Notes under the pieces: generated by a model
Databases searched by the model: none
The model's input: only the letters and a program-made list of their open reading frames with translations
Told to the model about the DNA's origin: nothing
Program-made: the position numbers and the translations under genes
NCBI GenBank assembly: GCA_902774195.1
Contig: CACYHM010000005.1
Span: forward strand, 1-18,327
Direction of reading: 5' to 3'
Length of the DNA stretch: 18,327 bases
Source: an uncultured Eubacteriales bacterium
Lineage (GTDB): Bacteria; Bacillota_A; Clostridia; Peptostreptococcales; Anaerovoracaceae
Part shown: piece by piece, positions 1,028 through 16,977 of the stretch
Layout of the letters: every line of letters begins with the position of its first letter
How positions within the stretch are numbered: the first letter of the stretch is position 1

Positions 1028-1966
1028 ATGGCTGGAAAGAAAAGACTTGTAACAAGAAGCGATTTTGACGGTCTTGTATGCGCGATGCTTCTCAAAGAGC
1101 TCGATATCATCGACGACATCAAGTTCGTTCACCCTAAGGACGTCCAGGACGGCAAGGTAGAGCTGACTGAAAACGACATCACGACCAACCTCCCGTTCGA
1201 CCCGCGCGTCGGACTGGCATTCGACCATCATGAGTCAGAGATGCTCAGAAACGACCCGGAGAAGTTCGGAGGCAAGTACTATATCGAGCCTCACGCAAGA
1301 AGCGCTGCGCGCGTCGTATACAACTACTACGGCGGCGCCGACACCTTCAAGAATGTCACTGAAGAGATAATGACAGCGGTCGACAAGGGAGACAGCGCGG
1401 ACTACACTCTCGATGAGATCCTGGATCCTAAGGGATGGGTACTGATCAACTACCTGATGGACCCGCGCACAGGACTCGGACGCTTCCACGACTTCCGCAT
1501 ATCGAACTACGATCTGATGATGGAGCTCATCGACTACTGCGTCGATCACAATATCGATGAGATACTCGAGCTCCCTGACGTAAAGGAAAGAGTCGACCTC
1601 TACTTCGAGCAGGCCGACCTCTTCAAGGATCAGCTGAAGCGCATCGCAAAGGTCCACGGCAAGGTAGTCGTGCTCGACCTCAGAAACGAAGAAGTCATAC
1701 ATGCCGGAAACCGCTTCATGATCTACGCTCTCTATCCTGAGACCGAGATCTCGGTGCATGTGGCATGGGGCTTCAAGAAGCAGAACACAGCGGTAATGAT
1801 CGGAAAGTCCATAGTCAACATAGTCAACAAAGCGTCTGACTTCGATATCGGAGCATTATGCCTCAAATACGGCGGCGGAGGCCACAAAAACGCCGGCACC
1901 TGCCAGCTCGAAAACGATGAAGTCGATGCGAAACTGCCTGAGATCATAAAAGAACTGAATTCCTGA
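1028..1966 (+). CDS. DHH/DHHA1 family phosphoesterase
   Basis: This 312-residue soluble protein has the two-domain layout of DHH phosphoesterases. The N-terminal domain shows RSDFDGLVCAML (residues 10-21; metal-binding D12 and D14), the name-giving DHH at 66-68, and DKGD at 119-122. The C-terminal DHHA1 domain shows the substrate-binding glycine loop GGGGHKNAG at 282-290. Family members hydrolyse phosphodiester or phosphoanhydride bonds, for example short RNA oligonucleotides, pAp, cyclic dinucleotides or polyphosphate. Many such proteins are labelled exopolyphosphatase, but sequence alone does not fix the substrate. Motif I has Arg where many NrnA-type enzymes have His, so a divergent substrate is possible. 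It is a single-gene unit with its own promoter, AGGAG 8 bases before the ATG, and a terminator. Confidence 0.9.
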   Translation: MAGKKRLVTRSDFDGLVCAMLLKELDIIDDIKFVHPKDVQDGKVELTENDITTNLPFDPRVGLAFDHHESEMLRNDPEKFGGKYYIEPHARSAARVVYNYYGGADTFKNVTEEIMTAVDKGDSADYTLDEILDPKGWVLINYLMDPRTGLGRFHDFRISNYDLMMELIDYCVDHNIDEILELPDVKERVDLYFEQADLFKDQLKRIAKVHGKVVVLDLRNEEVIHAGNRFMIYALYPETEISVHVAWGFKKQNTAVMIGKSIVNIVNKASDFDIGALCLKYGGGGHKNAGTCQLENDEVDAKLPEIIKELNS

Positions 1967-2049: not shown

Positions 2050-2080
2050 GCAGTAAAACGGCTCAAAATCGGCGCGTAAC

Positions 2081-2132
2081 GTAAAGTATTCTTTACATTG
2101 TGCGCCAAAAGGTAAAGTTTACTTTACCTTTT
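2081..2132. repeat. Palindrome pair, locus 1 (GTAAAG-N4-CTTTAC twice)
   Basis: The first copy is GTAAAG-TATT-CTTTAC at 2081-2096. The second, GTAAAG-TTTA-CTTTAC at 2112-2127, extends to 12-bp arms (AAAAGGTAAAGT, ACTTTACCTTTT) covering 2107-2132. Their starts are 31 bases apart. The same pair recurs at 8690-8734 and twice at 14914-15104. Here it sits between the convergent ends of the DHH gene and ppdK, and the ppdK terminator hairpin begins 42 bases after the start of the second copy. Confidence 0.8.
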
Positions 2133-2145
2133 GAACTCATTATAC

Positions 2146-2190
2146 AAAAAAGATGACGCCGCTCCGGCAAAACCGTGCCGTGCGGCGTCA
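2146..2190 (-). terminator. Intrinsic terminator of ppdK (also third part of the repeat module)
   Basis: On the minus strand TGACGCCGC (2190-2182) pairs with GCGGCGTCA (2162-2154), with an inner CGGCA/TGCCG stem and six T residues at 2151-2146. It lies 18 bases beyond the restored ppdK stop. Its outer TGACG...CGTCAAC bases and its offset of 42 from the neighbouring palindrome match the long inverted repeats at 14991 and 15127. Confidence 0.85.
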
Positions 2191-8689: not shown

Positions 8690-8734
8690 ATGTAAAGAAA
8701 TCTTTACATTTCATACGTAAAGTTTTCTTTACAT
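8690..8734. repeat. Palindrome pair, locus 2 (between ybeY and era)
   Basis: ATGTAAAG-AAAT-CTTTACAT (8690-8709, perfect 8-bp arms) and ACGTAAAG-TTTT-CTTTACAT (8715-8734) fill most of the 64-base gap between the ybeY stop and the era start. Their core starts are 25 bases apart, closer than the 31-35 of the other pairs, and no long third inverted repeat follows. In mRNA each could form a stem with a 4-base loop just upstream of era. Confidence 0.8.
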
Positions 8735-14476: not shown

Positions 14477-14896
14477 CTAGTCTTCGTGAGGTTCGAATCC
14501 GACAAGGCTCTCCGGCATAGGTCTGCCGCTCTTATTGTAATAGTCCACCATTGCAGCCTTGATGGCATCCTCTGCCAGTACCGAGCAGTGTATCTTCCTT
14601 GCCGGGAGTCCGTCGAGAGCTTCCACTACAGCCTTGTTCGTGAGTTCGAGAGCCTCATCGAGAGTCTTTCCCTTGATGAGCTCTGTTGCCATCGAGCTTG
14701 TGGCGATGGCGCTGCCGCAGCCGAAAGTCTTGAACTTCACGTCCTTGATCCTGTCGTCCTCGACCTTTATGTACATCTTCATGATGTCTCCGCAGAGAGG
14801 GTTCCCGACTTCGCCGATACCGTCCGCATCCTCGATCACACCTACATTGCGCGGATGTTCAAAGTGATCCATTACCTTATCTGTATATAGTGACAT
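14477..14896 (-). CDS. nifU: Fe-S cluster assembly scaffold, IscU/NifU N-terminal type
   Basis: This 139-residue scaffold receives sulfur from the cysteine desulfurase and assembles [2Fe-2S] clusters for transfer to apoproteins. The three cluster ligands are C35 (in NPLCGD), C60 (in FGCGSAIATSSM) and C104 (in KIHCSVLAED), and the conserved D37 that makes clusters labile is present. It contains only the IscU-like domain, not the ferredoxin or NFU modules of nitrogen-fixation NifU. A good AAAGGAG ribosome binding site lies about 6 bases upstream, directly beside a GTAAAG palindrome (14914-14933). It is read with nifS across a 308-base gap filled with repeats. The LPPMK motif for HscA chaperones was not seen. 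Confidence 0.95.
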   Translation of the reverse strand: MSLYTDKVMDHFEHPRNVGVIEDADGIGEVGNPLCGDIMKMYIKVEDDRIKDVKFKTFGCGSAIATSSMATELIKGKTLDEALELTNKAVVEALDGLPARKIHCSVLAEDAIKAAMVDYYNKSGRPMPESLVGFEPHED

Positions 14897-14913: not shown

Positions 14914-15030
14914 ATGTAAAGTTTTCTTTACATCGTTTACACGCAGATATGTAAAGTTTACTTTACGTCATTTTCACCTGATGTAGTTATGTTGACGTAA
15001 ATATCCTGTTTTCTACAATTTTGCGTCAAC
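14914..15030. repeat. Three-part palindrome module, locus 3 copy 1
   Basis: This contains GTAAAG-TTTT-CTTTAC (14916-14931, arms extending to 8 bp over 14914-14933), GTAAAG-TTTA-CTTTAC (14951-14966), and a 40-base inverted repeat with 11-base arms GTTGACGTAAA (14991-15001) and TTTGCGTCAAC (15020-15030) around an 18-base spacer (one arm mismatch). Core starts are 35 and 40 bases apart. Spacer sequence is not conserved with copy 2, so the palindromes rather than the whole segment appear to be maintained. Confidence 0.85.
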
Positions 15031-15052
15031 TTTTTGTCTGTTATAGTTCAAA

Positions 15053-15166
15053 ATGTAAAGCGTTCTTTACGTTTTGTAATTATTTTATAAAGTTTACTTT
15101 ACATTATCAGTTTTTTATCCCGTAATGTTGACGTAAATCTCACTGATTCCATCGTTTTACGTCAAC
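15053..15166. repeat. Three-part palindrome module, locus 3 copy 2
   Basis: This contains GTAAAG-CGTT-CTTTAC (15055-15070), ATAAAG-TTTA-CTTTAC (15087-15102, one base off), and a perfect 11-base-arm inverted repeat GTTGACGTAAA (15127-15137) / TTTACGTCAAC (15156-15166) with an 18-base spacer. The second palindrome to long repeat distance (40) and the 40-base total length are identical to copy 1. With copy 1 it fills the 308-base nifS-nifU gap; the remaining bases hold no recognisable gene. Confidence 0.85.
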
Positions 15167-15204: not shown

Positions 15205-16413
15205 TCATTCATGCCAGTATTCAGGTATGCAGTGTTCCCTCTTGCCGATTTCGAGATCTTCCCAGTATGGGGACATCGATCTGTACAGGGCGACGACCTC
15301 GTGCACCTTTTCGATGATGTAGTCTATCTGCTCTTCATCGTTGTCGATATCCAGGCTGAACCTCAGAGAGCCGTGCGCGGCCTCGACCGGTACTCCCATG
15401 CCCGTAAGCACGTGTGACGGGTCGAGCGATTCGCTGGTGCAGGCCGATCCGGACGAGCACTCGATGCCGAGCATATCGAGGTGCAGCAGCAGGCTCTCGC
15501 CCTCGACGCCCTCGAATGACCAGTTTACGTTGCCCGGGAGCCTCTTTACCGGATCACCGTTGAGCTGCGAATAAGGGATGTCCTTCAGACCGTTGATCAG
15601 CCTGTCTCTCAGCGCCCTTACTTTGCTCATGTTGGCGTCCATGTTGTCGGTCGCTTCCTTGAGAGCGGCAGCCATCGCCGCGATGGCAGGCACGTTCACA
15701 GTACCGGCTCTCTTGCCTCTTTCCTGGGCTCCTCCCTCGATGACGTTCACAAGGCGGATGCCGTTTCTGGCGTAGAGCACTCCCACTCCCTTAGGTCCGT
15801 GGAACTTATGTCCCGACATCGACAGCATGTCGATGTTCATAGCCTGGACGTCTATCGGAAGATGCCCCGCGGCCTGTACTGCGTCAGTGTGGAAGAGCAC
15901 TCCCTTCTCTTTGCAGATCTTTCCGATCTCAGGTATAGGCTGTATCGCTCCCATCTCGTTGTTCGCGAACATTATGCTGACGAGCGCGGTGTCCTCTCTT
16001 ATAGCGTCCGCGACCTTCTTTACATCGACGACGCCGTTGGACTCAGGAGCCAGGAACGTGACCTCGAAGCCTTCCTTCTCGAGCTTGGCCATGGTGTGAA
16101 GTATCGCATGGTGCTCGATATTGAGCGTGACCAGGTGTTTTTTGCCCTTTGCCCTGAGGCCTCTTGCAGCGCTTATGAGCGCCTGGTTGTCGGCTTCCGA
16201 ACCGCCGGATGTGAAGTAGATCTCATTCGGCCTTGCGGCGTTGATGCATTCCGCAACGATCGCCCTGGCTCTGTCGAGCTCTTCCTGCGTACGCTGCCCG
16301 TCGCTGTGCAGGCTGTTAGGGTTGCCGTTGAATTCATCCAGACATTCGATGAATTTCTCTTTAGCCGTCCTGCTCAGGTAAGTCGTGGCGGCGTTATCTG
16401 CATATACTCTCAT
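15205..16413 (-). CDS. nifS: Cysteine desulfurase, NifS/IscS type
   Basis: This 402-residue PLP enzyme converts L-cysteine to L-alanine and passes the persulfide sulfur to the NifU scaffold. The PLP-binding lysine lies in SMSGHKFHGPKGVGVLY (K203 at the HK pair), preceded by the cofactor residues TSGGSEADN (68-76) and HTDAVQAAGH (175-184). The active-site Cys is C325 in SSGSACTSESLDPSHVL. The ending KREHCIPEYWHE is somewhat longer than the classic enzymes. The start at 16413 follows iscR by a 17-base gap, so both are in one operon. The extended mobile Cys loop and GSACTS favour the group I (NifS/IscS) subclass over SufS. Confidence 0.97.
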   Translation of the reverse strand: MRVYADNAATTYLSRTAKEKFIECLDEFNGNPNSLHSDGQRTQEELDRARAIVAECINAARPNEIYFTSGGSEADNQALISAARGLRAKGKKHLVTLNIEHHAILHTMAKLEKEGFEVTFLAPESNGVVDVKKVADAIREDTALVSIMFANNEMGAIQPIPEIGKICKEKGVLFHTDAVQAAGHLPIDVQAMNIDMLSMSGHKFHGPKGVGVLYARNGIRLVNVIEGGAQERGKRAGTVNVPAIAAMAAALKEATDNMDANMSKVRALRDRLINGLKDIPYSQLNGDPVKRLPGNVNWSFEGVEGESLLLHLDMLGIECSSGSACTSESLDPSHVLTGMGVPVEAAHGSLRFSLDIDNDEEQIDYIIEKVHEVVALYRSMSPYWEDLEIGKREHCIPEYWHE

Positions 16414-16947: not shown

Positions 16948-16977
16948 AATCCTACCACCCCGGTAGGATTAAGTCAA
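16948..16977 (-). promoter_or_regulatory. iscR promoter with embedded Rrf2-type operator
   Basis: On the minus strand TTGACT (16977-16972) and TAGGAT (16954-16949) are 17 bases apart. The inverted repeat AATCCTACC-N5-GGTAGGATT (16948-16970) covers the whole -10 box and nearly all of the spacer. Binding there would block RNA polymerase directly, as expected for autorepression by IscR. The match to an Rrf2 site is by geometry and position, not a search. Confidence 0.8.

Follow-up and report, generated by a model that had tools for sequence, protein, structure and literature searches.

Dispersed palindromes with a helically phased inverted repeat in gut Mogibacterium-like genomes, candidate sites of a dimeric chromosome-organising protein

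The gap between nifS and nifU in an uncultured Eubacteriales bacterium holds four palindromes and two 40-bp inverted repeats, and raises the question of what such an arrangement is and whether it serves the nif genes. The window, that is, the whole stretch of DNA analysed, comprises 18,327 bp of contig CACYHM010000005.1. The source organism is Mogibacterium-like; the window's NifS shares 96% identity with its counterpart in a sheep-ileum MAG (L046, genome G001) and 95% with the one in a Clostridiales MAG (L001, genome G002). The original prediction described two consecutive modules, each with two palindromes and a long inverted repeat, and named a protein-binding platform, a structured RNA and a non-autonomous element as possible readings.

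Palindromes and inverted repeats in the window

All six elements of the two-module layout are present as described (Table 1). The second palindrome and the long repeat start 40 bp apart in each module, and the module period is 136 bp from repeat to repeat and 139 bp from first palindrome to first palindrome, again as predicted. The spacer between the first long repeat and its flanking palindrome is 24 bp on either side, and the constant is therefore the 52-bp centre-to-centre distance. An optimised alignment of modules 1 and 2 has 49/54 identical positions in the arms and 32/59 outside them, so the modules are, as the original prediction held, not a simple recent duplication.

With up to two mismatches allowed, the window contains eight matches to GTAAAG-N4-CTTTAC (seven exact and one with a single mismatch), located in three gaps, vs 0.24 expected; none of 200 shuffles reaches eight. 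The long repeat, with up to three mismatches, occurs twice vs 0.00 expected. A T-run follows the 2154-2190 repeat on the minus (ppdK) strand, and this repeat therefore probably doubles as the ppdK terminator. The ppdK gene has an apparent frameshift near its 3' end (window ~2209-2365), the familiar C-terminus continuing in another frame and ending near 2209, which may be a sequencing error.

Table 1. Features of the window, with positions counted from its first base
Feature	Position	Sequence	Remarks
P1 palindrome	14914..14933	ATGTAAAG-TTTT-CTTTACAT	16-bp core from 14916
P2 palindrome	14949..14968	ATGTAAAG-TTTA-CTTTACGT	16-bp core from 14951
IR1	14991..15030	GTTGACGTAAA-N18-TTTGCGTCAAC	40 bp, one arm mismatch; 52 bp centre to centre from both P2 and P3
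P3 palindrome	15053..15072	ATGTAAAG-CGTT-CTTTACGT	16-bp core from 15055
P4 palindrome	15085..15104	TTATAAAG-TTTA-CTTTACAT	core from 15087, one arm mismatch (ATAAAG); 32 bp from P3
IR2	15127..15166	GTTGACGTAAA-N18-TTTACGTCAAC	40 bp; 52 bp centre to centre from P4
Palindrome pair (2081, 2112)	2079..2129		spacing 31 bp; convergent gap, gene 1028-1966 (+) / ppdK (-)
Inverted repeat	2154..2190	TGACGCCGC...GCGGCGTCA	52.5 bp centre to centre from 2112 palindrome; core like long repeats
Palindrome pair (8692, 8717)	8690..8734		spacing 25 bp; gap ybeY / era
nifU, Fe-S scaffold	14477..14896		minus strand; downstream neighbour of array
nifS/iscS-type cysteine desulfurase	15205..16413		minus strand; upstream neighbour of array

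Recurrence of the palindrome and of the 52-bp spacing

Genomes were checked for random spacing of the motifs or their occurrence in the window only, and neither was found. Of the 47 genomes found via NifS (L001-L047), 37 hold 3-16 copies of exact GTAAAG-N4-CTTTAC each and the other ten 0 or 1; 11 exact copies were counted in each of the window's two closest relatives. In a family sample of 296 genomes the 18-mer form occurs at least once in 42 and at least twice in 20. Its reversed control was never above one per genome across this sample, and in the 47-genome set a single genome had two matches. On the NifS tree, from which L042 and L045 were omitted, site-poor genomes occupy some four positions, as judged by eye (L003/L035, L014, L028 and the M. 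pumilum group), and L021, a neighbour of L028, has eight copies. Because the site-poor genomes are scattered, whole site sets have been lost or gained more than once, a pattern that matches the loss of one reader. Such whole-set absence amounts to a natural experiment, and comparison of sister genomes should name the reader.

The anatomy of the palindrome was determined from 216 sites (203 exact, 13 with one mismatch), which form 125 arrays in the window and 20 genomes. The stretches were selected by exact matches, which favours exact sites, so part of the core's exactness follows from the selection, but no more than 13 copies with a mismatch came up in these stretches. Further sites are listed outside the 125 arrays (e.g. 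G006 C12 and G008 C25), and the G003 sites are at least those among the matches listed. A makes up 83% and T 76% at the outer two arm bases, which lie outside the search pattern, and the centre is biased towards A/T. The palindrome in full is WATGTAAAG-N4-CTTTACATW. Neighbouring sites no more than 130 bp apart give 88 distances; 31-36 bp accounts for 46 of them (34-35 bp for 29) and 17 bp for nine, and both loops and spacers vary between copies. Spacings of 34-35 and 17 bp, commoner than 32 bp, are not whole helical turns. A CRISPR array was rejected as a description: it would have identical repeats and spacers of at least about 20 bp, whereas the palindromes here (16-20 bp) vary at the centre and are separated by short, irregular spacers. 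The motif had 0 matches in plasmid records, and searches of open-licence papers by motif letters and by genus plus palindrome returned nothing relevant. A search for palindromes in M. pumilum returned repeats of ribosomal, insertion-sequence or simple type, none of them a convincing counterpart.

The long repeat is a second, rarer element with the core SACG-N26/27-CGTS. The surroundings of 231 sites (the 216 above and a further 15 from seven nifS loci) were scanned to ~220 bp for SACG-N(k)-CGTS, with 20 matches at k=26 and six at k=27. Repeat and palindrome centres are 52.0 bp apart in seven cases and 52.5 bp in three, or 10/231 sites in five genomes, compared with 3/4134 displaced control draws at 51.5-53 bp. 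Matches at 83.5-87 bp stem from the second palindrome of the same pairs, and the other distances below 130 bp for k=26/27 (63, 95 and 98) occur once each. The ten junctions comprise four in the window (three at nifS-nifU, one at the ppdK end), those at the ppdK end of G001 and of G002, a second locus of G002, two in L025 and one in G262. As several of these are orthologous, the independent events number fewer than ten. L025 is the nifS-nifU locus of genome G312, and its repeat arms are GTCACG, not GTTGACG. An eleventh junction, at 52.5 bp, involves the second repeat of L245 (GTTGACC...).

The complete order, a repeat, 52 bp, a palindrome, 32 bp, a palindrome, 52 bp and a repeat, is found in the window, L025 and G002/L245, with the repeats 136-136.5 bp apart. 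Distances of 52, 32, 84 and 136 bp are close to 5, 3, 8 and 13 helical turns. Since the 52-bp distance recurs in five genomes with differing arm sequences, the geometry, as judged from sequence, supports a helically phased protein-DNA platform. The protein-binding option of the original prediction is supported in that 52- and 32-bp centre distances are constant at several loci in five genomes and near-invariant arms surround free, A+T-leaning centres. The three-part module holds for the window and fails as a general unit, the long repeat lying at 52 bp at only 10/231 sites; it is the fullest form, and elsewhere most sites have no long repeat. The helically phased DNA platform is real and recurring, and of the loci analysed the window has its fullest form.

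The exact long repeat, with GTTGACGTAAA and TTTRCGTCAAC arms, had 0 matches in the species genomes, and a form with C replacing T after GTTGACG was found in G001 and G002. GTTGACG-N26-CGTCAAC with up to one mismatch matched in eight of 29 genomes and its reversed control in 13, so the raw count is at chance. Inner complementarity is present in the copies of G001, G002 (three), G248 (two) and G009. Repeats of 40 bp and GTTGACG...CGTCAAC type were also observed at G248 C6:56341 and 56510, G002 C243:3871 and G009 C43:69966; these have no listed exact palindrome beside them, and the G009 genome is motif-less. The long repeat had 0 matches in viral contigs.

Gene context and chromosome position

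The 125 arrays are distributed as 77 between co-directional genes, 26 in convergent gaps, three in divergent gaps and 19 inside called genes, some of the last depending on uncertain calls. Gene calls were simple longest frames guided by M. pumilum similarity. Divergent gaps account for 3 of 106 intergenic arrays vs 17-25 expected from the gaps in the same stretches. In co-directional gaps (77) the first site often touches the end of the preceding gene: it overlaps that gene's stop codon in 20 and starts no more than 7 bp from the codon in 18 others. Four genomes have the palindrome at matching codons of argC and five at matching codons of folC, with variation at adjacent third positions; these sites were seen through exact matches, hence only in genomes with a site, yet such a recurrence of exact matches would be unlikely if the DNA were not under selection.

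Genes beside sites share no common pathway, and most sites are at non-nif genes. The nifS-nifU gap has a site in only 12/45 relatives with a readable gap, positioned just ahead of the nifU ribosome-binding site. A nif-specific role is unlikely because of this low count, the location of most sites elsewhere and the presence of another palindrome before rrf2. The last two points also led to rejection of the palindromes as the Rrf2/IscR operator of the nif cluster. The other palindrome, a perfect ATCCTACC-N5-GGTAGGAT at window 16949-16969 just upstream of rrf2-nifS-nifU, also precedes rrf2 in L003 (4425), L028 (4490), L035 (4429) and L046 (4472) and is probably the operator of the cluster's Rrf2 regulator. 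The most widely kept site pair is that upstream of mraZ-rsmH, found in 13 genomes; a half-site there may overlap the -35 box, which a regulator would explain too. The pair (L068 7380-7510 and orthologues) stands beside GTGGGG boxes, which resemble MraZ sites, and the upstream gene's terminator.

Arrays are concentrated on single contigs in several draft genomes, with 6/9 on 8.2% of the genome in G148, 5/8 on 5.6% in G238, 5/9 on 5.0% in G298 and 5/9 on 3.4% in G248, and more weakly in G011 (4/7 on 10.4%) and G001 (3/8 on each of two contigs); the contigs were picked after the sites were seen and come from these draft genomes only. Loci were mapped on the complete M. pumilum chromosome, which has its origin near 320 kb (GC skew and parS) and its skew maximum at 1256 kb. 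The four arrays of G290, each on its own contig, were not included, and of the other 121 arrays seven lacked a mapped flank. On this map, that of a rearranged, site-less relative, 19 of 24 unique loci lie in the terminus half and five in the origin half. Eighteen of the 24 fall at 0.65-0.90 of the origin-terminus distance (KS vs uniform, p = 0.00017), as do 15 of 20 syntenic loci. The sites are thus likely, and because of the nature of the map only likely, to lie mostly in the terminus-proximal half and not at the terminus itself. The palindrome as a replacement of parS in a ParB (or Noc) system was rejected, since parS with up to one mismatch was found in 13/18 motif-bearing and 8/8 motif-poor genomes; a second ParB-family protein was rejected as well, 8/19 motif-bearing genomes having a single ParB-family match.

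Proposed reader, rival explanations and known systems

Forty-one viral contigs (L285-L325), of temperate phages and others, carry the palindrome as tandem pairs. Phage L287, which has the commonest layout, carries two sites, one mismatched, between a CI-like gene (HTH_3 plus peptidase S24) and a P22-Cro gene; this setting was inspected in the one phage contig. Tandem arrays are also present in viruses of quite different base composition, and L311 has about nine copies in a row. The L287 setting makes an XRE/CI-type dimer plausible as a protein able to read the palindrome, and the reader in Mogibacterium may be of the same type. No DNA-binding candidate was found among the site-adjacent genes without an M. 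pumilum homologue, where the reader protein was sought.

We infer that a protein reads the sites, and propose that the palindrome is a double-stranded DNA site of a putative dimeric, sequence-specific protein, kept by a clade of Mogibacterium/Crickella gut bacteria. Genomes with the palindrome carry ~3-16 exact copies, single or arrayed, between and sometimes inside genes. A second protein, or the first in another binding mode, would act at a few loci on the 38-41 bp inverted repeat, and because the repeat is about five helical turns from the palindrome the parts would face the same side of the helix. The job would most likely be to mark or organise a chromosome domain, for example by anchoring, stopping or unloading SMC loops, and would not be the switching of nif genes. 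Dispersed sites of a dimeric protein with such an architectural role are the best fit, at about even odds (roughly 0.5). The second element is found at few loci and five of the 24 mapped loci lie in the origin half, both of which speak against it, as do the palindrome spacings that are not whole turns, the 40-bp repeats with no listed palindrome beside them and the possible overlap with a -35 box at mraZ. A more specific proposal is tentative and falls short of even odds, namely an undescribed chromosome-domain system of Clostridia in which a palindrome reader and a second protein would be phased on sites flanking the terminus, with sites decaying upon loss of the reader. Little is known of how chromosome domains are delimited near the terminus in Gram-positive bacteria.

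The main rival is an ordinary regulator, with the palindromes as operators of an XRE/CI-type transcription factor, the arrays and second repeat as a repressor/activator complex, and nifU, mraZ and others as targets. The phage L287 setting, the conserved pair before mraZ-rsmH and the position just ahead of the nifU ribosome-binding site would all suit a regulator, and the avoidance of divergent promoter regions, the convergent and intragenic arrays (26/106 and 19/125) and the lack of a common pathway among adjacent genes would not, leaving this reading unlikely. Structured RNA hairpins acting in transcript stability, processing or termination are very unlikely. Perfect 8-bp stems with 4-nt loops do fold in the nifS-nifU transcript, some second repeats are terminator-like and divergent promoters are avoided; yet on the sense strand of co-directional gaps the second arm pair is Watson-Crick in 98 cases, A.C in 19, G.U in 12 and other in 37, and because A.C departures exceed G.U, RNA pairing is not what is kept. 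The sites inside coding sequence, the tracking of helical turns by the 52-bp geometry and the absence of any Rfam family at gathering score also count against this option of the original prediction. The other, a non-autonomous element, here short mobile or REP-like elements spreading through intergenic gaps, is the least probable of all. It would account for the mostly intergenic location, the avoidance of divergent gaps and the variation of copy number and location between species; against it stand copies that have only their arms in common (loops, spacers and flanks differ), the fixed two-element geometry and a Y1 transposase missing in 11/20 motif-bearing and present in 6/9 motif-poor genomes.

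The architectural reading has a special case with a named reader, in which XerD-like sites would unload SMC as in B. subtilis; this is quite unlikely. The clade's XerD-like protein (L069 10224-11102, counterparts in 17 genomes) has Q and F aligned with two E. coli XerD histidines in 17/17 sequences, from motif-bearing and motif-less genomes alike. These histidines are catalytic, and since they are replaced the protein may be kept only for DNA binding. The terminus-ward distribution of the sites agrees with a XerD reader. The half-site (T)TATGTAAAG also resembles the XerD arm of B. subtilis dif, TTATGTAAACT, as given in PMC3025954, and XDS of B. subtilis are described in PMC10945525 and PMC12322038 as terminus-region sites where XerD unloads SMC. 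The arms here, however, are head-to-head and opposite in sense to dif, and the protein is present in motif-less G009, G274, G302 and G012-G015. Only 2/293 alignment columns separate the motif-bearing from the motif-less group. Lone ATGTAAAG half-sites number 23 vs 15.5 expected, with control words varying equally, and so show no clear enrichment. Searches for dif gave nothing above chance and no convincing dif.

Several known systems are similar in part. P22/lambda-type CI and Cro operators resemble the sites in the 16-mer form found in L287, in tandem arrangement and in the free, A+T-leaning centre, a behaviour of P22 and 434 operators; they are promoter operators on phage genomes, whereas the sites here are dispersed on the chromosome and off divergent promoters. 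The stoperators of mycobacteriophage L5 bind a repressor and are dispersed over short intergenic gaps close to start and stop codons, a likeness to the gap sites here, and differ in being asymmetric and on a phage genome. The matS/MatP system of the E. coli Ter macrodomain likewise repeats a short palindrome in one chromosome region; the sequence of matS differs from the palindrome here, the sites here form arrays with a phased second element, and they seem to lie on either side of the terminus, at least 0.1 Mb away. PMC3330122 gives matS as a 13-bp target with 23 copies in 800 kb. RefZ-binding motifs (RBMs) of Bacillus, compared by description and not by motif sequence, are nearly palindromic sites at set chromosome addresses with a TetR-family reader (PMC6657595), and differ in being five sites near the origin side in B. 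subtilis that belong to a sporulation system.

A tyrosine recombinase of ~390 aa is encoded at M. pumilum C1:1260092-1260829, within a few kb of the GC-skew maximum, and a match of similar length and score was found in each of 22 genomes searched. The matches are presumably orthologues, and the protein may be the lineage's own dimer-resolution recombinase. In G001, G148 and G006, sites are present on the same contig as this gene, starting 126-128 kb off.
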